A stretch of 64,000 bases of DNA from Candidatus Poribacteria bacterium. Its GTDB lineage: Bacteria > Poribacteria > WGA-4E > JAJDTR01. The notes beneath the pieces are model-generated. The model was given only the letters and a program-made list of their open reading frames with translations. It ran no database searches and was not told the DNA's origin. The stretch is from positions 1-64,000 of the forward strand of contig JAPPIK010000031.1 of assembly GCA_028820655.1 (NCBI GenBank). The letters run 5' to 3'. Positions 15,091 to 51,184 of this stretch are shown piece after piece; within the stretch, counting starts at the first letter, position 1, and every line of letters starts with the position of its first letter. Position numbers and translations under genes: made by a program.

Positions 15091-15915
15091 ATGACAGAGG
15101 AACAAATCAGGCATTTTGGCACGCTAGGGTTCTTTCTGTGGAAAGGACTGCTGTCTCCCGATGAAATGCAGGGGCTATCCGTCGCTTTTGATGCGGCAAT
15201 GACAAAAGCGCGCGGCGGAGAAGAAGATCCGGCACTTCGCCAAGACGAAGGAGGCAATTCCGCCAGAAGGGAACAGATCATCCCCTTCTTCGACTATGAT
15301 CCGGACGCCTTTTATCCCTTGCTCGACGATGAGCGATTTGTCAACGTCTTGGATACCCTTCTTGGGGATGATTTCATCCTTACCGTGAGCGAAGGTGTCA
15401 TCCACGCCGGCGGCACCCGGTGGCATCACGACGCTTACGGTCCCGAAGGATTTTTCAGCATGAAGGTCGCCATCTATCTGGATCCGCTCGGTCCCGACGA
15501 CGGTTGCCTTAGCGTCATTCCGGGCAGCCATTTCATGGAATACCGTAACGCGCTTAATGAAACCAAGGGCACCATTGGCGTTAAACCCGAGGAGATTCCG
15601 GGGCATTACCGGATCTGCACCGAACCCGGGGATGTCATCTTCATGAATCACAAGACTCACCACGCCGCGTTGAGCGATAATCCCGGACGCCGCGTCATCT
15701 ACTTCAATGCCGTCCAGAACACGACCGCCGAAAAGAACCGGGAACACTTCGATTGGTTGATGAACTTTCTCAGCGGAGAGACGAGTCATTGGGGCAGATT
15801 TTACAGCGAGAGTCTCTTGCGCACCGCTACGCCGCGCCGGCAAAAGATGATGGATCGAGCCATCGAGTTGGGATTCGGAAACACCGGACCCATCACCCAT
15901 CTGCAGAATATGTAG
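15091..15915 (+). CDS. Phytanoyl-CoA dioxygenase (PhyH) family protein
   Basis: Predicted 274 aa. The Fe(II)/2-oxoglutarate site is intact: HxD as W111-H112-H113-D114, distal His in KTHHAAL (H190/H191) and an Arg pair in NPGRRVIYFN for 2-oxoglutarate. The double-stranded beta-helix core has VAIYLDPLGPDDGCLSVIPGSH. A close paralogue lies at 50378-51184 on the other strand. The substrate is unknown; bacterial members hydroxylate diverse small molecules. It is preceded by the hydrolase-like gene and followed after 14 bases by the membrane gene. Confidence 0.88.
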   Translation: MTEEQIRHFGTLGFFLWKGLLSPDEMQGLSVAFDAAMTKARGGEEDPALRQDEGGNSARREQIIPFFDYDPDAFYPLLDDERFVNVLDTLLGDDFILTVSEGVIHAGGTRWHHDAYGPEGFFSMKVAIYLDPLGPDDGCLSVIPGSHFMEYRNALNETKGTIGVKPEEIPGHYRICTEPGDVIFMNHKTHHAALSDNPGRRVIYFNAVQNTTAEKNREHFDWLMNFLSGETSHWGRFYSESLLRTATPRRQKMMDRAIELGFGNTGPITHLQNM

Positions 15916-15929
15916 CCTAGGGATACCAG

Positions 15930-18584
15930 ATGCTGTTGCGGTTAATCCAAATGGGCATCGGGAATCTGTTTGTCTTGGGAGTCACCATCCACCTGTTTCG
16001 ACTCCTTCGTACAACCGTTCCTCATCTGAATATTCCAATCTTCGGTTTCCTATGGATATTTAGCGCTACGCTGTTCACCTTTTTACTCGGCATATTCGGG
16101 TTTCTCGCGCCGGCGCCGATGGCTCTCGCAAGCCTCATTGGATTGCTATTGATGGGGCTGCACTTCCTCCGGAATCGGTCGCGCTACGTAGTTACCTTTT
16201 CATCTCTCCGCACGCGGTTCAAGCGCCCAAGATTTACACTTGTGGCCGGTTTCCTCGCCGCTGCGGCGCTAATCCAATTGCTCCGTATCGCGTTCCATGT
16301 CTGGTACACCCCGCCCTATGTCCACGACACGCTGACCTACCACCTGCCAAACGTCGCCGAGTGGGTGCAAAAGGGACGCATTCATGCTATCTCCACCCCT
16401 GTGCTTCGGAGTTATTGGCCCGCGACCTTCGAGGTCTTCGAATCGTGGTTCGTCGTTTTCCTGCACAACGATCTCCTGATTCAACTCGGCTGCGTCTCCT
16501 GCTATCTGCTCGCCGTGACATCGGTATACGCCATCTGCCGGGGTCTTGACTTTGGGAAGCACCTTTCGGCGGGTGTCGCGCTGCTCTATGCGTACACCCC
16601 CTCGGTGGCGATCCATGCGACCTCTTGCAAAAACGACATGGCTGTGGCGGCGGTGTACCTGTTTGCCATGGCGCTCCTCGTCGACTTGTTGCGAGTTGGC
16701 AACTCCTCAAGTTTTCCCCTATCTCGACGACTCCTGCTCATTGCCATGGCGTTCTGTGTCGGGGTTGGCACCAAGGCGTATGCCGTCTTTATCGCGCCGG
16801 GTTTGATCCTTCTCGGCATCGCCGCACTGGTGAAACACCGGTTGTTAAAGGGTGCGATTCTCAGCCTGCATCCCAAGAACATCCCATCAACCGGTCGTTT
16901 TACCCTTTACACAGGTCTCCTTCTCGGCAGTGGAGTTCTGACGTTCTACTGGTACGTGCGCAACTACGTAATCTTCGACAACCCGTTCTATCCCGCGGAC
17001 TTTAAGCTTTTCGGACACCTCGTTTTCGGATCGGGCGCCGCGCCCGATCCCGGTACCTCCGCCCAATCTTCATTCAGTATTCACTCCATGTGGCAAAACG
17101 CCCGAAACCTCGTAACGTACAAGATACTGGATCAGTTCCGTATCTATACCGACTTGAACCGAATCACCGGCTGGGGCTGGTTCAATTTCGCCTGCGGGAT
17201 TTCCGCGGTAATCTACGGTCTGCTTTTCGACAAGCGGGTACGATTCATCATTCTCTGTTTTGTCACATCCCTATTGTCTCTGTTGGGCTGGGTGTTCGTC
17301 GATGACTGGCACGGTCGATTCCTCCATTTCTTCCCACCCGTGTTCGCCATCGCTTTCGGAGCACTGCTAATTCGTTTGCGAATCAGATGGGCTACGGCGC
17401 CTCTGGCAGCGCTCGCCATCGTGTGTAGTTTGTTCAATTACCTAGCCGTGCTCAACGTCGGCGTGTTTTCCAAAGACGATTTGGGGCGTCTCATGGCGCT
17501 TCCCCCGTTACAGCGCTCGTTGGTCAACGCGGATATCAACTACCCGTGGGTTACGGGCAGCGCATATGGGGAAGTGCTAAAACATGTCCCCGAGGGCGAA
17601 ATCATCGGATACAGCTTGAGAAAGAACGATGTCATCTACCCGCTTTACGGCAGTGACCTGTCACGTCGATTGCATTATATCGCCGATTTCCCCGCTGGCC
17701 TCGTTGATTCTATGAACTCGCGCGGCATTCGCTACCTATATTTTCCGCGGGCGGTGGAACGATTCATCGGGGGGTGGATGCCCCCTTACGGCGCTCATCA
17801 GATTGGTGTTCGCGGCGGACAAATGGCAACTTGGATAAACCTGAACTCGCGAAACCACGAATACAACGCGGGGGAAGTTCAACCCGGCAAATGGACGCAT
17901 CTTGCCTTCACCTTTAGTGGCGAACAGGCAATCTCCTACGTGAATGGCGAAATCGTCGCCGCTCTCGACTATCGTGGAGAGGTTAAGTTTAATCGAACGC
18001 CTCACTTCGTGATTGGAGAACGGTCAAATTTTACTCCGGGCGAACCCTTTCGAGGGAGGATTGACGAAGTATCGTTGTTTCGTCGGGTATTGGCGCAGCG
18101 GGAGATTCGGGAGATAATGAACAGAGGAATCTCACTGACCGAAAGTCCCTCTAATCAATCCGCAACCACCCCGGATGGCTTGGTAGCCTACTACCGATTC
18201 AACGGAAACACCAAAGACCTATCGGGAAACGGCCACGATGGGAAACTTATCGGCTACGCGAAACTTGCCTCGGATAACGGTGCTCCGGTCCCCGGTGCAA
18301 AGGGGTGTGTTCGCTTACCGGGGGTTATAGGAAACGGTGTCGATTGCGGGGAATCGCCGGAGTTGCGAATCGCATCCAACCTAACGCTGATGGCATGGGT
18401 CCATCCGGACAGTGTCGATGGCACCCACTTCGTGGCGGGAACACCCTACAGCGGCGGCGAATGGTGGAAACACTCTCGGATCGCAAAAGTAATTCGAGAT
18501 AACACATTTACCCAAATAACGAGGCATCTCTATGCGCTTAAATCTTCCGAGACTGATCGTCGGACTGGGGATTCTGGCGATTAA
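15930..18584 (+). CDS. GT39-like membrane protein fused to LamG segments
   Basis: Predicted 884 aa. Residues 1 to about 530 form a multi-pass membrane protein with YVHDTLTYHLPNVAEWVQKG and SYWPATFEVFESW, the pattern of GT39/ArnT-type dolichyl- or lipid-sugar transferases. From about 620 it changes to LamG-like sequence (GVRGGQMATWI, GKWTHLAFTFSG, FRGRIDEVSLFRRVL), starting mid-domain. A second LamG start (GLVAYYRFNGN) at about 750 stops after MAWVHPD and runs into unrelated sequence. It looks like a chimera of three pieces. Confident about the parts, unsure the whole protein is functional. Confidence 0.65.
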   Translation: MLLRLIQMGIGNLFVLGVTIHLFRLLRTTVPHLNIPIFGFLWIFSATLFTFLLGIFGFLAPAPMALASLIGLLLMGLHFLRNRSRYVVTFSSLRTRFKRPRFTLVAGFLAAAALIQLLRIAFHVWYTPPYVHDTLTYHLPNVAEWVQKGRIHAISTPVLRSYWPATFEVFESWFVVFLHNDLLIQLGCVSCYLLAVTSVYAICRGLDFGKHLSAGVALLYAYTPSVAIHATSCKNDMAVAAVYLFAMALLVDLLRVGNSSSFPLSRRLLLIAMAFCVGVGTKAYAVFIAPGLILLGIAALVKHRLLKGAILSLHPKNIPSTGRFTLYTGLLLGSGVLTFYWYVRNYVIFDNPFYPADFKLFGHLVFGSGAAPDPGTSAQSSFSIHSMWQNARNLVTYKILDQFRIYTDLNRITGWGWFNFACGISAVIYGLLFDKRVRFIILCFVTSLLSLLGWVFVDDWHGRFLHFFPPVFAIAFGALLIRLRIRWATAPLAALAIVCSLFNYLAVLNVGVFSKDDLGRLMALPPLQRSLVNADINYPWVTGSAYGEVLKHVPEGEIIGYSLRKNDVIYPLYGSDLSRRLHYIADFPAGLVDSMNSRGIRYLYFPRAVERFIGGWMPPYGAHQIGVRGGQMATWINLNSRNHEYNAGEVQPGKWTHLAFTFSGEQAISYVNGEIVAALDYRGEVKFNRTPHFVIGERSNFTPGEPFRGRIDEVSLFRRVLAQREIREIMNRGISLTESPSNQSATTPDGLVAYYRFNGNTKDLSGNGHDGKLIGYAKLASDNGAPVPGAKGCVRLPGVIGNGVDCGESPELRIASNLTLMAWVHPDSVDGTHFVAGTPYSGGEWWKHSRIAKVIRDNTFTQITRHLYALKSSETDRRTGDSGD

Positions 18585-18991: not shown

Positions 18992-20185
18992 ATGAATATA
19001 GATCGAGAACAATTTTTCCGCGACGGATTTCTTATTATACGAAACTGCATCCCGCCCGAACAGCTAGACCAGTTCCGTGATAGCTTTGAAGTCTTGGTTG
19101 AACGTCAGAAAGCCATCTGGGCTAGTGACCGATCGCCGGATGATCCGCCGGGCGGTGCGTGGGAGATCAGCGGGCAACCTCGACTCTCGGGTTATGAAAG
19201 ACTGATCGATGCGGCAACGGCCGACACTGTCGAGATTTGCCTTCATGAGAACACCATGGGTGTGTGTAAACAACTGATGCGCGCCGCCGAGGCGGGGGCG
19301 CAAAACAAGATGTTTATGTGCAGTCCCGTGAGCGATCATGGGCCCGCGAGCTGGCATCGAGACATTCACCCGGTAGACCAAGCGCCACTGCGCGGGCTTC
19401 AGATGGACCTTCTGGAAAACGCGCCCGGTTATCTCCAGTGGAACATTCCGCTCTACGATGATAGTGTGTTGTGGGTGGTGCCCGGCAGTCATCGCAGAGG
19501 CAACACCGAAGCCGAGAACAGCCAACTCAGTGAGGATTCTCGGGTGCCTCTGCCAAACAGCATTCCGGTAGAGATGAACGCGGGCGACGGGGTCGTTTAT
19601 ACCAACACCATCTTTCATTGGGGCAGCAACTACAGCACCAAACTGCGAAGGACAATTCACTTGGGTTACCGCGCTTTCGGCGGCCCAATCTTCCCCTACG
19701 TTTGCCACTTTCACCGCAATCTAGACTTTACCCGGCACCTCTCTCCGGGCGCCCGCGCAGTATTTGAACGACAGGCTCAATTATACCTCGAAGAATGCGA
19801 CGTGATGGAATCCACCTTCCGTGCAATCATCGACAAGAACGCGGAGGCCTTCCGCGAAGGTCTTGCAATTCTGCATCCCGGCGAATCGAGGCGGATTGTC
19901 TGCCTGATACTTGTGTCCAAAGTGGCGTACAAAATGCGGTTTGCCTCGCACCCCGCTCGAGCGGCTTTCGGCAGCGACATCTCGCAAGATAGAGACCTCA
20001 AGCCGCGTTTTTCGCCGGCTGAGATTGAAACGCTCTGGAAGAGATTTTCAGTGCTGGATGAAGCGATTCAATCGCACCAGGAGGAATTTATCTCGGGCTT
20101 TCAATCCGGACCGATGCACTACTCTTTCGAAGAGATGCCGACGAAATTCGATGTGGAAGACTTCATCGCAAGCTGGAACACATGA
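18992..20185 (+). CDS. Phytanoyl-CoA dioxygenase family protein, long form
   Basis: Predicted 397 aa. The iron site is present: SWHRDIHP gives H122 and D124, the distal His is H209 in TIFHWGSN, and TKLRRTIHLGYR supplies the 2-oxoglutarate Arg. The first 50 residues are typical (REQFFRDGFLIIRNCIPPEQL). About 110 residues beyond the core are helical and of unknown role. It opens a three-gene PhyH cluster; the next gene begins 55 bases downstream. Confidence 0.85.
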   Translation: MNIDREQFFRDGFLIIRNCIPPEQLDQFRDSFEVLVERQKAIWASDRSPDDPPGGAWEISGQPRLSGYERLIDAATADTVEICLHENTMGVCKQLMRAAEAGAQNKMFMCSPVSDHGPASWHRDIHPVDQAPLRGLQMDLLENAPGYLQWNIPLYDDSVLWVVPGSHRRGNTEAENSQLSEDSRVPLPNSIPVEMNAGDGVVYTNTIFHWGSNYSTKLRRTIHLGYRAFGGPIFPYVCHFHRNLDFTRHLSPGARAVFERQAQLYLEECDVMESTFRAIIDKNAEAFREGLAILHPGESRRIVCLILVSKVAYKMRFASHPARAAFGSDISQDRDLKPRFSPAEIETLWKRFSVLDEAIQSHQEEFISGFQSGPMHYSFEEMPTKFDVEDFIASWNT

Positions 20186-20240: not shown

Positions 20241-20948
20241 ATGGATCTTGAGGATGCCACACTTCGGTTGGATGAAGAGGGATACTACATACTGGAAGAC
20301 GCGCTCGATCCCCGCGAAGCGGAACGATTGGATTTGGCGGCACGTGCTCTGATGGAACCCAAAGCCGACACGAATCAGAGATACTTGAGCATGGAGGACT
20401 CCCTCAATACCATTCCCGGTCTTGCGCCGCTCTGCACCCACCCGGCAATCCTCGAGTTGGCTGAAGCAGTATTGGGGGAAAAGTTCATTCTGGCAAACAC
20501 CGTTGCCATGAAATGGTGCAGACCCGGTGCCGCCGCTGGCGGATTGCATGCGGATTGGCCGCTCAACGCGGGAATACCCCAACCTTGGCCCGTACTGCCA
20601 ACGGGATTTCAAGCATTCTGGATGCTCACCGACTATACGGCAGATAACGGCGCCACCACCATTGTCCCATTCAGCCACCATAGCAGGCGTCCTCCGACAC
20701 AACCGGAATATCCGCAGGAGATGCCGCTCATCGGGAAGAAGGGGGACGTAGCTGTGTTTGTCAACGGCACGTGGCATCGCAGCGGCGCCAACACGACGAC
20801 AGACCGCCATCGAATGGCAGCCAACATGCTCTATATCCCCGATTTCCTGAATCGACCGAGGACCGGTTGGCCGCTCGTGAAGCGCGAGGTGTATGACCAG
20901 TTTTCGCCCCGCCTTCAGGAGTTGCTTGAGCGGTCTGTCGAATGGTGA
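20241..20948 (+). CDS. Phytanoyl-CoA dioxygenase family protein (HxD site)
   Basis: Predicted 235 aa. H103-A104-D105 forms the HxD motif, H179 (TWHRSGAN) is the distal iron ligand and R191 (TDRHRMAAN) the likely 2-oxoglutarate anchor. This is an intact oxygenase-type site. Start ATG 20241 is preceded by GGAGACGGTC. It is a tandem duplicate of the next gene, sharing RLDEQGY/DEEGYYILE, DPREAERLD, PSVSMEGSLN-like and KREVYDQFSPRLQELL blocks, which makes the active-site difference between them informative. Confidence 0.88.
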   Translation: MDLEDATLRLDEEGYYILEDALDPREAERLDLAARALMEPKADTNQRYLSMEDSLNTIPGLAPLCTHPAILELAEAVLGEKFILANTVAMKWCRPGAAAGGLHADWPLNAGIPQPWPVLPTGFQAFWMLTDYTADNGATTIVPFSHHSRRPPTQPEYPQEMPLIGKKGDVAVFVNGTWHRSGANTTTDRHRMAANMLYIPDFLNRPRTGWPLVKREVYDQFSPRLQELLERSVEW

Positions 20949-21007: not shown

Positions 21008-21029
21008 GTAGGAGCGATTTCCAAATCGC
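21008..21029 (+). repeat. REP-like hairpin, GTAG + GCGATTT stem
   Basis: GTAG (21008) then GCGATTT-CC-AAATCGC, perfect 7-bp stem (21014-21029). Confidence 0.65.
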
Positions 21030-21114: not shown

Positions 21115-21831
21115 ATGGACCTAAACGAAGTTAAACTGCGGCTAGACGAACAAGGTTACGCCATTCTGGAAGGCCTTCTCGACCCACGCGAAGCCGAGCG
21201 TCTTGATGCCATAGCGCGTCCCATCATGGAGGTACCGCGGGACAATATATGGGGCGCGAACGGCTATGTCAGCATGGAAGGGTCGTTAAACCACATCCCC
21301 GATCTGGCTCCGCTATGCGTCCACCCCACGATTCTGAAACTCCTCGACATGGTTCTTGGCGAGAGCTACTTTTTGGCGAACAATGTCGCCATGAAATGGT
21401 GCAAACCGGGCACGCACGTCGGAGGTTTGCATTCTGCAGGAGGTTCAAAGCCCGCCCAAACCTTTACCGGTTACCCCACGGATCTTCAGGTCTTCTGGAT
21501 GCTCACAGACTTCACGTATGAAAATGGCGCCACCATGGTCGTGCCGTTTAGCCACCATACTCGCCGCTCCCCGACTCGCGCGTCGTACCCGCAGGAGATT
21601 CCCGTCATTGGCAAAAAGGGCTCCGTGTGCGTCTTCTACGACAGCCTCTGGCATCGCAGCGGCGCGAATACGACCACCGACCAGCATCGCATGTCGGCAA
21701 ATGTATTCTATCTACCTTGGTTCATCCACCGATCAGACGATCAGTGGCCGCGCGTGAAGAGAGAACTCTACGATCAATTTTCGCCGCGCTTGCAAGAGTT
21801 GCTCGTACGCTCCGTTGAAGACCCAAAATGA
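21115..21831 (+). CDS. PhyH-family protein with HxA iron site, candidate halogenase
   Basis: Predicted 238 aa, tandem paralogue of the gene at 20241. The HxD motif is altered: H106-S107-A108, while the distal His (H180 in LWHRSGAN) and the Arg (R192 in TDQHRMSAN) remain. In Fe(II)/2-oxoglutarate halogenases such as SyrB2 (HTA) and WelO5 or BesD (HxG), loss of this Asp opens a site for chloride or bromide. The fold and the retained ligands make halogenation a reasonable inference. A degenerate oxygenase or a non-enzymatic binder remains possible. The rest of the protein is well preserved, which argues against decay. Confidence 0.75.
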   Translation: MDLNEVKLRLDEQGYAILEGLLDPREAERLDAIARPIMEVPRDNIWGANGYVSMEGSLNHIPDLAPLCVHPTILKLLDMVLGESYFLANNVAMKWCKPGTHVGGLHSAGGSKPAQTFTGYPTDLQVFWMLTDFTYENGATMVVPFSHHTRRSPTRASYPQEIPVIGKKGSVCVFYDSLWHRSGANTTTDQHRMSANVFYLPWFIHRSDDQWPRVKRELYDQFSPRLQELLVRSVEDPK

Positions 21832-22005: not shown

Positions 22006-22027
22006 GTAGTAGCGATCTCTGAATCGC
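22006..22027 (+). repeat. REP-like hairpin, GTAG + GCGAT stem
   Basis: GTAG (22006) then GCGAT-CTCTGA-ATCGC. Confidence 0.5.
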
Positions 22028-22205: not shown

Positions 22206-22273
22206 CGCATGTCTCAGGCTAATTTCATTCGTTAGGCATTTCCCAGGCTGTGGCGTTACCACAAGGAGACAAA

Positions 22274-24571
22274 ATGACGGCTACCCGAGAGATTCTGGAC
22301 CGGAACGACCTGGTCTATAAAGCCCTTCCACCCCGATGGGTGTTCGGACTACCTATCGGCAACGGTCAGATCGGCGGTATGATTTGGGTTGAAGATGAAA
22401 CCAAAGTTGTCGTCACGCTCGACAGTGTGTGGGCGTGGGACCTCCGCCAAACACCCAAGCAAACCACCTACGCTCATTTTCGGGAGCTCATGGCGGCGGA
22501 AAAGTACGACGAAATCGCGCCATATCTTAACACCGGGGAGCCCTTGCCGAGAAAGACGTACGTGGGCAGACTCGTCATTGATTTGGGGCGGAAAATCTTG
22601 GGGGAGGGGCGGTTGCGCTTGGGCGATGCCGAGGTCGTACTCGATCTTCACACAGATGATGGCGGCGTCATCCATCTGAAGTTCGTCGCCTATGCCAATC
22701 TTCCGGCCATCGCAGTCGATCACCCTCAAACCGGCATCAAAGAGATTCGGCTCGAACGGCTTTCGGGTGAGCGAGTCGGTTTGCAGGATGCGCCCGAATA
22801 TACTGAAGGCACCTCGGCGTCAGTTGAGTGGATTCGCCAAGACATCCCCGCCAGTCCCTCCATTGTGCTTGGACTACGCCGTGGAAAGACTCAGTCCTTC
22901 GCGACAGTCCAGGCTACACGAAACGGATGCGACCCGCTCGAAGAAGCCGTAAGCGTACTTGAGAAGGCATCGGCAACCCCTGTCGCCCACCTTGAAGACC
23001 ATCGTGAGTGGTGGCAAGGGTTCTGGGAGAAATCGAGCGTGCAGGTGCCGGACGAAAAGATTGAATCGCTCTGGTACATGGGGTTATACATGCTCGCAGG
23101 CGCAAGCCGCAAGGGTGGATGCGCAGCTAGCCTGCACGGTGTCTGGTCACCGGACAGTTGCATCCCGCCCGCGCACGGGTTCTACATTTGGGACTTCTAC
23201 TCGCAGCACTGGGGGCTTTATACGGCAAACCGCCTGGAACTTGGTGAAGCCTTCTGCGACCACTTTCTCTCGATTCTCCCTCGTCTGAAGGAACAGACCC
23301 GACAGTTCTACGAGTGGGATGGCGTATTTGTCCCCGGCATCATGGCTGTTGACGGATCATGGATTCTTCTCGGGCACAACGAGTTGCTCCTCTGGCCCGG
23401 CACCACCGCGTGGGTTGCGCAAGCCTTCTGGTGGCAATATCTCTATAGCAATGACACCGATTTCCTTAGGAAGAAGGGATATCCCTTCATGCGCGAGTGC
23501 ATGCTATTTTTTGAGCGATTGCTCGAAAAGGGGGAGGACGGAAAATTCCATCTGAATGTCGCCTACGCCCCGGAGTTTAAGAGTTGGACACGGGACGACA
23601 CGCTCAGCCTGTCGCTCATCCGGTATCTTTTTGATGGCGCGTTGAAAGCTGTCGAGGTTCTTCAGATTGACGAGCCCCATCTGGCGACTTGGAAGGAGAT
23701 ACTTGAAAACCTCCAAGAATATCACGTTGATGACTCGGGGCTGTGTTTTGCGGAAGGATTGCCGTACTCGGAGTCTCACCGCCACATGTCGCACCTCGCG
23801 CCGGTCTATCCTTGCGACGATGTGAACATTGACGGATCGTCAGAAGAGCGCCAACTTATCGATCGGACGATAAACAACGTGATTCTAAAGGGGTACGGTA
23901 CTTTCGTCGGCTGGGCATTCGTCTGGCTCTCTGCGATCGCCGCCAGAGCCGGCCGTGGCAGAATGGCGTGGTGGACGCTCAAGCAGTGTGCCGATGCGTT
24001 CGTCTCCGGCAACACGTACAACCTGAATTTGGATTGGGAGCGCAACGGTATCTCCATCCAGCCCGACACGCTCTGCGTCGATGGCAATATGGGAGCAGTC
24101 GATTCCCTCAACCAGATGCTGCTTCAGAGTTGGGGCGGACGTATTCGCGTATTCCCGGCGTGTCCCAATCATTGGCGCGATATCCGATTCGATAACTTGC
24201 GAAGCGAAGGGGGCGTAGAGGTCTCCGCCGTGCATGAGGATGGGCGTACATTGGGCGTTCGCTTGCAATCCGATTCGGAGACGAACGTCCGGTTGGTCAA
24301 CCCGTTCGGCGATTCGGGCGGTTACCTCGGCGGTCGGCAAATTCAGCCGACATCCGAAGGCGATTTGGAAGTCAATCTCGCTGTCGGGGAGGCAATCTGG
24401 TTTACAGCCGCTCCTGATATTCATCTCGCGGACTTGGAGAATTTCGCCGTGGAACGCCCCGAAGCCCTGCGGAATCCGTACGGACTCAAATTTGTTGATC
24501 CGGATTGGCTGAACGACAGCCCGGACATCGCGAAAGTACACCCGCATTTCCGTGGAACCTTCATAGAATAA
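22274..24571 (+). CDS. GH95-like glycoside hydrolase, tandem copy 1
   Basis: Predicted 765 aa from ATG 22274, after AAGGAG; an upstream in-frame GTG (22250) is not preferred. N-terminal LPPRWVFGLPIGNGQIGGM matches the GH95 (alpha-L-fucosidase-type) opening. Family landmarks: SHRHMSHLAPVYP (about 505), GWAFVWLSAIAAR, VDGNMGAVDSLNQMLLQSW (about 620) and GGRIRVFPACPNHW. No signal peptide, so a cytoplasmic or unusual export role. GH95 enzymes release fucose or galactose from oligosaccharides by inversion; true specificity is unproven. Closest to copy 3. Confidence 0.8.
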   Translation: MTATREILDRNDLVYKALPPRWVFGLPIGNGQIGGMIWVEDETKVVVTLDSVWAWDLRQTPKQTTYAHFRELMAAEKYDEIAPYLNTGEPLPRKTYVGRLVIDLGRKILGEGRLRLGDAEVVLDLHTDDGGVIHLKFVAYANLPAIAVDHPQTGIKEIRLERLSGERVGLQDAPEYTEGTSASVEWIRQDIPASPSIVLGLRRGKTQSFATVQATRNGCDPLEEAVSVLEKASATPVAHLEDHREWWQGFWEKSSVQVPDEKIESLWYMGLYMLAGASRKGGCAASLHGVWSPDSCIPPAHGFYIWDFYSQHWGLYTANRLELGEAFCDHFLSILPRLKEQTRQFYEWDGVFVPGIMAVDGSWILLGHNELLLWPGTTAWVAQAFWWQYLYSNDTDFLRKKGYPFMRECMLFFERLLEKGEDGKFHLNVAYAPEFKSWTRDDTLSLSLIRYLFDGALKAVEVLQIDEPHLATWKEILENLQEYHVDDSGLCFAEGLPYSESHRHMSHLAPVYPCDDVNIDGSSEERQLIDRTINNVILKGYGTFVGWAFVWLSAIAARAGRGRMAWWTLKQCADAFVSGNTYNLNLDWERNGISIQPDTLCVDGNMGAVDSLNQMLLQSWGGRIRVFPACPNHWRDIRFDNLRSEGGVEVSAVHEDGRTLGVRLQSDSETNVRLVNPFGDSGGYLGGRQIQPTSEGDLEVNLAVGEAIWFTAAPDIHLADLENFAVERPEALRNPYGLKFVDPDWLNDSPDIAKVHPHFRGTFIE

Positions 24572-36086: not shown

Positions 36087-37874
36087 TTGAACGGTGCAAA
36101 AAAAACTGAATTCATTCCCGCCAGAGCCATTCTCATCGGGCTCATCCTTCTCCCGATAAATGCCTATTGGATAACCATTGTCAGCGAACTTTGGGCCACG
36201 ATGATAGGCATGAACGCAACATCATTGTTCTTCAACGCAGTCTTCAATCTCTTCTTCCTGATACTTATCAATCTCCCCCTCCGCAAATTCCTGCCTAACT
36301 TCGCTTTTTCGCGAACCGAACTCCTCACCATCTATGTGATGCTCGTGATGCTATCAACTGTCTGCGGGTACACGATGATGAGCTTCGTTATCGGCGGCCT
36401 GACACATCCGTTTTGGTTTGCCACGCCGGAAAATGAATATGCTGCACTCTTCCATAGATATATTCCCTCGTGGTTTACTGTTTCCGATAAGCGGGTGTTA
36501 AGAGGTTTCTTTGAAGGAGGCGAAACCTTCCACACCGCAGCGTATCTCAACACCTGGCTGATTCCCGTGCTTGTATGGACGGGGATTATATTCGCCATTT
36601 TTTTCACATTCATGTGTGTAAACATCATCATACGCAAGCAATGGACGGAACAGGACAAATTGAGTTATCCGATTATTCAAGTCCCGATCGAGCTGACCGC
36701 GCCACGCACGATGTTTCGCCCCCTTCTGTGGATTGGCTTTTCCGTATCTGCGCTGATTGAGATTATCAACGGTCTTCATCATCTTTTTCCCGTTATTCCC
36801 GGCATCCCGCTGCATTATGTCCATACCTTTACGGAAAGACCATGGACGCTGGGATGGATGAGATTCTCTTTTAACCCATTTGTAACCGGGTTGACATTCT
36901 TCGCGCCCTTGGACTTAGCGTTTTCTGTCTGGTTCTTCCACCTTTTCTTCAAAGCGCAACAGGTTATCGTGCATGTAGAGTTAGGATCAATGCCCTCGTG
37001 GGTTCCTGTCCGTGCCCACGGCATCTATGGGATGCAACAGGGACTTGGGGCATGGACGACGCTGGGTATTTTATCTCTATGGATGACCAGGCGGCATCTT
37101 CGCCAGGTATGGAGGATACTCGTTGGGCAACCCTCGACCCTCGACGATTCAACCGAACCGCTGCGCTACAGATTTGCCGTCCTTGGGCTGGTTCTTGCGA
37201 TGACTTTTCTGGTTCTTCTGCTCCAGCAAGCGGGATTATCCTTATCAGTGATGCTGTTTTATTTTGCGATTTACTTGCTGATGTCTATTGCCATCACGCG
37301 TGCCCGCGCTGTGCTCGGTCCGCCCTACCATCAAATTGTCTTCACTTCCCCGCAAGGATTTATGGTGGACGTGATGGGGACACGTGCGCTTGGCCCGAGC
37401 AATCTGACTATCCTATCCTTTCTATACGCTTTCAACAGAGAAAACACTTCTCATCCGATGCCGAACCAGCTAGAAGCCTTCAAGATCGCCGAGCGGACAG
37501 GCATAAACAATACCCGTATCCTGTTGGGTATGGTGCTCGCCTTGCTATTCAGTATACTGGTGTCGTTTTGGGCGTATTTCCATGTAATGTATAAACACGG
37601 TGTGGCCACAAAAGCACAAGGCCCACTAATGTATATGGGGTTTGAGTTCTTCAGACTGTTAACGTCATGGTTACAGTACCCTAAGGAGTCAAACTACACC
37701 GCTACGTTTTTCATCGGATTGGGCGGGGTATTTACGGTGTTTCTGATGGGAATGCAAAGACGATTTATCTGGTGGCCCTTTCACCCTGCCGGCTATGCGC
37801 TGGGTGCGTCATGGGGTATGTGGCATGTGTGGACATCAATCCTGCTCGGTTGGGCTATAAAGGGATTATCCTGA
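36087..37874 (+). CDS. DUF6785-like multi-pass membrane protein, frame interrupted
   Basis: Predicted 595 aa from TTG 36087 (AGGA 11 bases upstream). About a dozen hydrophobic helices; conserved with the intact paralogue at 41035-42984: LIGLILLPINAYWI, ELLTIYVMLV, FWFATPENEYAALF, WTEQDKLSYPIIQVP, SHPMPNQLEAFKIAER. The frame ends at TGA 37872 just after GWAIKG, but the last helix and tail continue at once in the -1 frame to 38017. Function unknown; the membrane architecture suggests transport. Family name is from memory of the sequence pattern. Confidence 0.7.
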   Translation: MNGAKKTEFIPARAILIGLILLPINAYWITIVSELWATMIGMNATSLFFNAVFNLFFLILINLPLRKFLPNFAFSRTELLTIYVMLVMLSTVCGYTMMSFVIGGLTHPFWFATPENEYAALFHRYIPSWFTVSDKRVLRGFFEGGETFHTAAYLNTWLIPVLVWTGIIFAIFFTFMCVNIIIRKQWTEQDKLSYPIIQVPIELTAPRTMFRPLLWIGFSVSALIEIINGLHHLFPVIPGIPLHYVHTFTERPWTLGWMRFSFNPFVTGLTFFAPLDLAFSVWFFHLFFKAQQVIVHVELGSMPSWVPVRAHGIYGMQQGLGAWTTLGILSLWMTRRHLRQVWRILVGQPSTLDDSTEPLRYRFAVLGLVLAMTFLVLLLQQAGLSLSVMLFYFAIYLLMSIAITRARAVLGPPYHQIVFTSPQGFMVDVMGTRALGPSNLTILSFLYAFNRENTSHPMPNQLEAFKIAERTGINNTRILLGMVLALLFSILVSFWAYFHVMYKHGVATKAQGPLMYMGFEFFRLLTSWLQYPKESNYTATFFIGLGGVFTVFLMGMQRRFIWWPFHPAGYALGASWGMWHVWTSILLGWAIKGLS

Positions 37875-41034: not shown

Positions 41035-42984
41035 TCAGCCGAAAAACGGGTAGAGTAGTGTTCCCGACATTATTCCCAGCAGATTCCAGATGCAGCCTAT
41101 TGCGTATTCGCCCAGGATGAGGCCAAGGAAAAAAGGGAATGCATCGCGATACGCTTTGAGACCTCCGTATTTGAGGATTACCCATTTGATAATCCAACCC
41201 ACCAGAAACGAGAACCAGATAAGATTAATGAGCCATCCGCTTGTGGATAGGGCATAGCCAACCGGATGTAACGGCCACCACAAAAACCGGGTACGGAGAA
41301 ACATCATTATCAAGGAAAAAGAGAGGCCAATCCCAATAAAGCCCAGTTCAGGATAGCTCGTGTTGCCAGGATAGCGAAGCCACCGCTCCAGCCGGTTAAA
41401 GGATTCCCATGGAATGCCCACGTATCCCGTAAAACCCGAAGCGACGCCCTCTTCATAGGCAGCATGGAGCCATATCCATAAAGAAGATACAACGCCAACT
41501 GCAACAGCTATCATAATGGCGGCGGCAAGCCTTCTGGCATTCATGCCCACCCGTTCCGCCATCTTGAAACCTTCTAATTGATGAGGCATTGGATGACTTG
41601 CCATTGCCCGGTCAGTGAAAAATAGATAAGTAAGCATCATCAGATTTTTCCCGCCCAGACTCCGTGATCCCAAAGCCGAAACAAGGATTTTATCTGGCCC
41701 CACCAAATATAACGAGTGGTTTGGCGGCCCAAGTTCCGCGCGCATCCGCGTGACGGTCGTCGCAAAACCGATCAACAGAACAAAAAACGGGAACGCTATC
41801 CAGAAAGACATTCCACCGGCCATACAAAACAGGATCAGAAAAGAGAGTCCCAGAGTAAGTCCTATCAAGGCTGTTCGAGGACTAATAGGCTCTTCCGAGA
41901 AATCGCGTCCTTCTGAAGTCTTTGCACCCCCTCGAAATGATTGTATGAATATGTTCTTCAGATGCTTCCTGGTCAGCCACAATGCAATGAGAAGGAGCCC
42001 AAGCCATCCGCCGGTCGTTTGTTGATAGATATAGGGGAAACCAGGCAACCGTTCCAATCCAAACATACTTGCCATGATGCGTTGCGACTTGGCGAACAGA
42101 TAGAAAAACCAAACAGAGAAACACAAATCCAGCGGGATAAAAAACACGAATCCCACAATCCATAGATAAACCGCAACCGGTGTCCATCCCATGGCGCTCC
42201 ACGGTTTTTCAGTGAATAAGCTGCTGATGTCCGTTCGAAATCGCAGGTTTGGAACGACTGGGAAATGGAAATGCAGCGCATGGATCATAGTAATTACTGC
42301 CATTAAACCGAACCCCAACAGGAACAACCTATTTGAAAAGAGCGCATTTCCAGTGCCGTTTCGCGTCATCGCCAAAGGGAGTTGGATGATTGGATATGAC
42401 AGCTTCTCACTCTCTGTCCACTGTTTTCTGACAAGCACGGTGACGCACAGAAAGGTAAATATCAGAACCACCGTAAAGATTGACCAGAGCGCCAGAGGTT
42501 GTAACCAGGCGTTGATAATTTCAGAACGATAGATGCTGGAATCGCCTTCATAGAAACCGCGCAGCGCTGTTTTATCTATAACCGCGAGCCGATCAGGCAC
42601 GTAGCGCGAAAATAATCTAGACCATTCGTTCTCGGGAGTGGCGTACCAGGAAGCGTGTCCTAGCGAAAGGATGAAGTTCAGAAGGAACTCGTTTCCCGTC
42701 ATGCTGGAGCCCAAGCATAACATCACGAAGATAGTAAGCAACTCCCCCTGTTTCAACGCCGCTTTAGGAGCTAATCGCTTGCATAATGCGTTGAATCCCA
42801 CTAATATCAACAGCGTGAAGACCACATTAAAGAAAAGGGAAACTCCTGAGGTCAAAGAGCTCCCAGCCGAGGCCGAGATCCCTTCGCCATGTGCTACCCA
42901 ATAACAGTTAAGCGGGACTAAGACAAGCCCTATTACCAGAGCACGGAAAGTGACGCCCGATGAGCCGCCTTCAGGTTTTCCCAT
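41035..42984 (-). CDS. DUF6785-like multi-pass membrane protein, intact
   Basis: Predicted 649 aa, the uninterrupted paralogue of the gene at 36087. About 13-14 hydrophobic helices. Conserved blocks: RALVIGLVLVPLNCYW at the start, QGELLTIFVMLCLG, SWYATPENEWSRLF, YEGDSSIYRSEI, WTESEKLSYPIIQLP, ASHPMPHQLEGFKMAERVG and the C-terminal KYGGLKAYRDAFPFFLGLILGE-type block (split here). Transport of an unknown solute is a guess from topology. It serves as the reference showing that the other copy is frame-broken. Confidence 0.75.
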   Translation of the reverse strand: MGKPEGGSSGVTFRALVIGLVLVPLNCYWVAHGEGISASAGSSLTSGVSLFFNVVFTLLILVGFNALCKRLAPKAALKQGELLTIFVMLCLGSSMTGNEFLLNFILSLGHASWYATPENEWSRLFSRYVPDRLAVIDKTALRGFYEGDSSIYRSEIINAWLQPLALWSIFTVVLIFTFLCVTVLVRKQWTESEKLSYPIIQLPLAMTRNGTGNALFSNRLFLLGFGLMAVITMIHALHFHFPVVPNLRFRTDISSLFTEKPWSAMGWTPVAVYLWIVGFVFFIPLDLCFSVWFFYLFAKSQRIMASMFGLERLPGFPYIYQQTTGGWLGLLLIALWLTRKHLKNIFIQSFRGGAKTSEGRDFSEEPISPRTALIGLTLGLSFLILFCMAGGMSFWIAFPFFVLLIGFATTVTRMRAELGPPNHSLYLVGPDKILVSALGSRSLGGKNLMMLTYLFFTDRAMASHPMPHQLEGFKMAERVGMNARRLAAAIMIAVAVGVVSSLWIWLHAAYEEGVASGFTGYVGIPWESFNRLERWLRYPGNTSYPELGFIGIGLSFSLIMMFLRTRFLWWPLHPVGYALSTSGWLINLIWFSFLVGWIIKWVILKYGGLKAYRDAFPFFLGLILGEYAIGCIWNLLGIMSGTLLYPFFG

Positions 42985-50377: not shown

Positions 50378-51184
50378 CTACTGCAAATCCTGCAAATGGC
50401 TGACGTCTCCCGTGTTTCCGAATCCTAGATCAATCGCTCCCTGCAGCATCCTTCGGCGCCGCGGTCCCGCCGTAGAGATTAGGCGCTCGCTGTAAAATCG
50501 TCCCCATCCTCGGGTCTCGCCGGCAAGGAAGCCAACCAGCCAATCAAGATGTTCTTGACTCTTTTCGGCGCTTGTATTTTGTACACAGTTGATGTGGATG
50601 GCGCGCCGCCCCGGCGTATCACTCAGCGACGAGTGAAATGTCTTGTGATTCATGAAGAGGATATCGCCCGGCTCGTTGACTAGCGGATACCGCCCCGGGA
50701 TGTCCTCGGGTTTGACGCCTATATCGTTCATGTGCCGCGCCAAGGATTCCTGATACTCTTTGAAGTGGCTCCCCGGAATCACGTTAAGGCACCCGTCTTC
50801 GGGACCGAGCGGGTCCAAATACATCGCCGCTCTCATACTGAAGAACCCCTCCGGACCGCAGGCATCATGATGCCACGCGCTGCCTCCGGTGTGCAGAATT
50901 CCCTCGCTGACTGTCAGGATGAAGTCCTCACCCATCAAGGTTGAAAAAACATCCAGAATTCGCTCGTTATCCAACAAGGGATAGAACGTATCGGGATCGT
51001 AGTCGAAGAAGGGGACAACCTGTTGCCTCGGCTCCCCGCTTACCGGTGCCGGAGCGCCCCCTCGCGCCCGTTCCATCGCGCTGTCGAAAGCCGAGGAAAG
51101 TTTGTCAACCTCTGCCGGTGAAAAGAACCCCTTATACTGGACAAAACCCAACGTTTCAAAGTGACGAATCTCTTCCCGTGTCAT
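50378..51184 (-). CDS. Phytanoyl-CoA dioxygenase (PhyH) family protein
   Basis: Predicted 268 aa, close paralogue of 15091-15915 (shared MTREEIRHFETLGF-type start, FDYDPDTFYPLLDNER, CGPEGFFSMRAAMYLDPLGP, GFGNTGDVSHLQ end). Iron site WHHDACG gives HxD; the distal His lies in HKTFHSSLSDTPGRRAIHIN, with the Arg pair for 2-oxoglutarate. A normal oxygenase site. It stands alone, with no operon partner, 200 bases from the Gfo/Idh gene. Confidence 0.88.
   Translation of the reverse strand: MTREEIRHFETLGFVQYKGFFSPAEVDKLSSAFDSAMERARGGAPAPVSGEPRQQVVPFFDYDPDTFYPLLDNERILDVFSTLMGEDFILTVSEGILHTGGSAWHHDACGPEGFFSMRAAMYLDPLGPEDGCLNVIPGSHFKEYQESLARHMNDIGVKPEDIPGRYPLVNEPGDILFMNHKTFHSSLSDTPGRRAIHINCVQNTSAEKSQEHLDWLVGFLAGETRGWGRFYSERLISTAGPRRRRMLQGAIDLGFGNTGDVSHLQDLQ

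Follow-up and report, generated by a model that had tools for sequence, protein, structure and literature searches.

A conserved PhyH-family protein of Candidatus Poribacteria without the metal-binding aspartate, encoded beside an HxD paralog: a possible non-canonical Fe(II)/2-oxoglutarate oxygenase

The window analyzed here, a stretch of 64,000 nucleotides from a member of Candidatus Poribacteria of the sponge-associated type, carries on its forward strand an open reading frame at positions 21115 to 21831 that encodes a protein of 238 amino acids. Against the PhyH profile PF05721 this protein scores 62.5 bits (gathering cutoff of 22; E = 8.8e-17), which places it in the PhyH family, and it is called acidless here for its lack of the usual metal-binding aspartate. 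Preceding it on the same strand is a second PhyH gene (20241 to 20948; open reading frame and profile) for a paralog of 235 amino acids that is 63% identical to it. The paralog reads GGLHADWP, bearing out the sequence-only reading, which had reported a tandem partner with an intact HAD motif. A third PhyH protein of 397 amino acids, also identified by reading frame and profile, is encoded further upstream (18992 to 20185, forward strand). Downstream lies a GH95-like glycoside hydrolase gene (22250 to 24571, forward strand; PF22124, E = 1.6e-46), the first of four consecutive large GH95-like proteins between 22250 and 32539 (starts at 22250, 24667, 27720 and 30119), a tandem expansion for which the profile confirmed the family of the first two. 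A palindrome-like intergenic repeat, GCGATYTCYRAATCGC, occurs at 21014 to 21029 and again at 22012 to 22027, on either side of the acidless gene; two copies were found in 0 of 100 shuffles, and a similar repeat is present in the corresponding spacer of a genome of the same genus. A scan for promoters and terminators gave a result no better than shuffles.

Three genomes were compared: that of the window itself (G000), one from the same genus (G001) and one from another family (G015). The tandem of an HxD gene and an acidless gene is present in all three (loci L042 and L043 outside the window), with spacers of 166, 127 and 43 nucleotides. In G000 and G001, the pair is flanked by GH95-like genes, at least the first three of the row also occurring in G001 (L042), while in G015 the flanking genes encode a TonB receptor and a peptidase of family M3, and the first GH95-like gene is not adjacent. 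The pair is therefore conserved while its surroundings are not. The upstream protein of 397 amino acids, which has its counterpart in G001 only (L042, 5919 to 7109), probably falls outside this core pair. The GH95-like neighbors suggest a carbohydrate as the substrate of the acidless protein, a context that is absent in G015. No carrier-protein gene or natural-product cluster was found near the pair, whose neighbors are GH95-like, PhyH, TonB receptor and M3 peptidase genes. The only matches from a plasmid search were PhyH relatives with identities up to about 30%.

The typical PhyH metal-binding triad, HxD followed by a distal histidine, is replaced in the acidless protein by HSA...H. At the usual place of the HxD motif the codons read CAT for H106 (21430 to 21432), TCT for S107 and GCA for A108 (21436 to 21438), all on the forward strand. 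The predicted distal metal-binding histidine, H180 (CAT, 21652 to 21654, forward strand), is invariant in 75 aligned PhyH proteins, and R192 (CGC, 21688 to 21690, forward strand), whose role in binding 2-oxoglutarate we take from established knowledge of PhyH enzymes, is arginine in all 37 of the nearest relatives. The codons thus agree with the positions claimed earlier for H106-S107-A108, H180 and R192. Among those 37 relatives, all from Poribacteria genomes, HxD is found in 33 and the aspartate is absent in only four (HSA, HSA, HSA and HWG). These four acidless proteins, at 60 to 94% identity, all retain H106, H180 and R192. The change is not one clean substitution, as the aspartate-bearing stretch D-W-P-L has been remodeled as a whole.

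Aspartate in orthologs would have marked the alanine as a strain-specific mutation, yet alanine is kept in both orthologs, that of G001 (94% amino acid identity, HSAGG) and that of G015 (68% identity, HSAWAA), and a further relative has glycine. This last protein, L040 of G015, is 60% identical with an HWG motif and is encoded apart from the tandem, where it lacks an adjacent HxD paralog of the group. Between G000 and G001, dN/dS of the acidless gene is 0.056 to 0.063, matching the 0.053 to 0.061 of its HxD partner in the same-genus pair, and comparison with the G015 ortholog gives an NG86 dN/dS of 0.094. We consider it very improbable that the motif is a relic or an artifact, whether an assembly error, a strain-specific mutation or a decaying duplicate. 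Such an origin might be read into the remodeled aspartate loop, the low model confidence at residues 113 to 116 of that loop and the abundance of duplicates in a genome with about 152 PhyH genes, but the same motif recurs in three genomes, dN/dS is about 0.06, the frame is intact and the predicted fold is confident. Orthologs and dN/dS together rule out an error or a pseudogene, and the loss of the acid is stable, reflecting neither error nor decay. A tree unites the four acidless proteins with support of 93/92 when the motif columns are included and of 31/74 when they are removed, so that a single origin of the loss in these four is plausible. The wider relatives are all from Poribacteria, as were all matches in a scan of the whole genome collection, which used short exact peptide patterns and may miss distant orthologs elsewhere.

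A second feature sets the acidless proteins apart. Set against 12 close HxD relatives, the four stand apart cleanly by residue class in only three columns: 108 (A/A/A/G versus D), 123 (D/D/D/E versus G/A/I) and 79 (Met). A column separating by an acid was found for only 5 of the 1820 possible foursomes of rows, and in the wider set position 123 is nonpolar in 30/30 scoreable HxD relatives. Asp123 (21481 to 21483, forward strand) is thus an acid confined to the acidless proteins. A gapless count back from a conserved N-G, with the SptF numbering offset of 2 set by S114A in 7EYW, aligns position 123 with SptF Thr148 and Q125 with SptF Asn150. Both SptF residues belong to the active-site cavity and interact with the substrate (PMC8748661), so that an acid has entered the cavity in which the ligand acid was lost. 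In SptF, however, Thr148 touches the substrate through its main chain via a water molecule, and the facial triad is on the far side of the substrate (PMC8748661); Asp123 may therefore not reach the metal. Across the aligned relatives, the new cavity acid co-varies with the loss of D108, although this covariation could amount to one coincidence if the four acidless proteins stem from one event.

The AlphaFold2 model of the acidless protein is confident (pLDDT of 93.2, pTM of 0.91). Its best 50 matches in the PDB are chains of DhiD, FtmOx1, PrhA, SptF, AusE, TlxIJ, AndA, EasH and OkaE, and sequence searches concur in placing the protein nearest to solved oxygenases. With the PhyH oxygenases DhiD, SptF, FtmOx1 and PrhA it shares the family, the predicted fold, both histidines and the arginine for 2-oxoglutarate. 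DhiD and SptF differ from it in having HxD, as their alignments show, where it reads HSA and carries the additional acid at position 123.

We tentatively favor, at a probability of roughly 0.4, a working non-canonical Fe(II)/2-oxoglutarate oxygenase in which the carboxylate has been re-engineered and possibly relocated. Starting from the motif, its conservation, the selective constraint, the predicted fold, the tandem and the co-varying acid, we infer iron binding, a role for Asp123, a chemistry and a setting for the substrate along the following lines. Fe(II) would be held by the two histidines, H106 and H180, and 2-oxoglutarate by S182 and R192. The aspartate ligand was replaced by alanine (glycine in one relative), and position 123, which belongs to the following core strand and to the lining of that cavity, acquired an acid. 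This acid could either supply the third metal ligand from a new place or anchor a polar substrate in a two-histidine site such as that of AspH. Activation of O2 would proceed as usual, yielding a product that is hydroxylated, demethylated or cyclized rather than chlorinated, and the enzyme might work alongside the HxD sister, the two taking, for instance, successive steps or related substrates. This interpretation draws on selection equal to that of the HxD partner, on the retention of both histidines and the arginine, on the oxygenase folds, on the covariation at position 123, and on the precedents of AspH and the HGG proteins described below. Human AspH, a hydroxylase that carries HxG naturally, has an Fe(II) site of two histidines without an acid (PMC8252765), as predicted for the acidless protein, although the human enzyme belongs to another family, has glycine in place of alanine and hydroxylates EGF-like protein domains. 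Replacement of the aspartate in FIH weighs on the other side, since the change to glycine keeps some activity and the change to alanine does not (PMC8252765).

The sequence-only reading had instead proposed a halogenase. What stands of that proposal is the motif: like Fe(II)/2-oxoglutarate halogenases, the protein has HxA or HxG with both histidines, and this combination, with the arginine, is conserved in all four members. On such an account, which we regard as unlikely, a PhyH duplicate would have evolved independently into a small, free-standing 2-oxoglutarate halogenase outside the known halogenase families, with its hydroxylase sister kept in tandem; the corresponding mechanism, which seems to us similarly doubtful, would have A108 leave room on the iron for chloride or bromide and the substrate radical rebound with the halide. 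The arrangement resembles that of the plant halogenase DAH, encoded near the HxD oxygenase FLS at 64.3% identity with the acid lost in one copy (PMC12346261), close to the 63% seen here, although DAH carries HxG, comes from a lineage of plant oxygenases and makes a product that has been proven. Enzymes of TIGR01762 (SyrB2 and CytC3 type) share alanine for aspartate and both histidines with the acidless protein, but the latter scores only 14.9 bits against a cutoff of 226.3, which excludes it from that family without excluding the function, and it lacks their carrier-protein setting. No gene in G000, G001 or G015 exceeds the TIGR01762 cutoff, halogenases are absent among the 50 best PDB matches to the model, and no biosynthetic cluster surrounds the pair. 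The acid gained in the cavity, which the sequence-only reading does not mention, should moreover disfavor an anion there and agrees less well with a simple halide site. The free-standing nature of the protein, unlike carrier-bound SyrB2, had been remarked upon earlier but says little in either direction, since free-standing 2-oxoglutarate halogenases acting on nucleotides are known (PMC11186838). The D414A and D414G variants of P4H do not halogenate (PMC2767507), and G000 encodes many PhyH proteins that lack the acid. HxA/G is necessary but not sufficient for a halogenase, and halogenation by this protein is possible but not specifically supported.

We give the same low standing to a non-catalytic partner subunit, which would pair with the HxD paralog and help to form the pocket for the substrate of that paralog, in the way that TlxI acts on TlxJ. 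Structures close to the model include TlxI and TlxJ (7vbq), likewise two oxygenase-type paralogs encoded as a pair. TlxI cannot catalyze the reaction itself, but the heterodimer reaches a kcat/Km of 1.63 per min per µM, compared with 0.02 per min per µM when TlxJ acts on its own (PMC12141560), a precedent that lends the idea credibility (PMC12141560, PMC11880133). Conservation of the tandem in two families while its flanks vary would fit such a pairing, although it is evidence of gene adjacency only. TlxI has, however, lost the arginine that binds 2-oxoglutarate, while the acidless protein retains R192 together with both histidines and S182; it has also gained and kept an acid in the cavity, and its HxG relative L040 occurs without an adjacent HxD paralog of the group. 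The non-canonical oxygenase ranks above both the halogenase and the partner subunit, which are placed equally, and what probability lies beyond these three falls to relics and to other or mixed roles.

Acidless members are widespread in the PhyH expansion of Poribacteria, which accounts for over 1.9% of genes (PMC3909097) and is largely unexplained. In G000, a mechanical motif scan found no H-x-[DE] within 40 to 135 residues before the distal histidine in 18/156 PhyH open reading frames, an approximate figure that includes some fragments and from which chance H-x-[DE] matches could have masked other cases. The acidless set of G000 includes a group reading LHGHG, LHGWG, LHGYG and LHGST (L081, L086 and L088). 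Another lineage, represented among the 18 by G000 C4:309378-310094 (L016, L063 and L143; L144 to L167), has homologs at E < 1e-30 in 77/83 genomes of the phylum, and LHGGG is invariant in the 26/26 sequences read, query included. The closest solved structure to this lineage is 4xc9, which we take to be HygX and whose chain reads H102-G103-G104. HygX has been linked to the formation of the orthoester in hygromycin B (PMC8234114). Compared by chain sequence only, it resembles the protein studied here in being an acidless PhyH-type protein with H-G-G at the metal-binding histidine, but it is kin to this other Poribacteria clade. On these grounds, lack of the acid does not in itself make a PhyH protein a halogenase, and in this setting HxA/G predicts halogenation only weakly.

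In searches for new halogenases, HxA/HxG is commonly read as a sign that an enzyme halogenates (PMC12871659, PMC11186838). Together, the group described here and the phylum-wide HGG clade show that in Poribacteria PhyH proteins often lack the acid and are maintained by selection in that form. The adjacent pair, about 63% identical and differing as HxD versus HxA, offers a clean natural comparison for the choice between hydroxylation and halogenation, and it bears equally on the ability of a metal-binding carboxylate to change its place in the fold.

Elsewhere in the window, two visibly similar PhyH proteins are encoded 35 kb apart on opposite strands (15091 to 15915, forward; 50378 to 51184, reverse), each reading W-H-H-D-A. 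Two large membrane proteins (36087 to 37874, forward; 41035 to 42984, reverse) are likewise alike by eye, and the former of the two matches DUF6785/DUF6784. The product of a further forward-strand gene (15930 to 18584) joins a laminin-G-type lectin domain (PF13385) to a hydrophobic N-terminal half that by eye resembles a glycosyltransferase.
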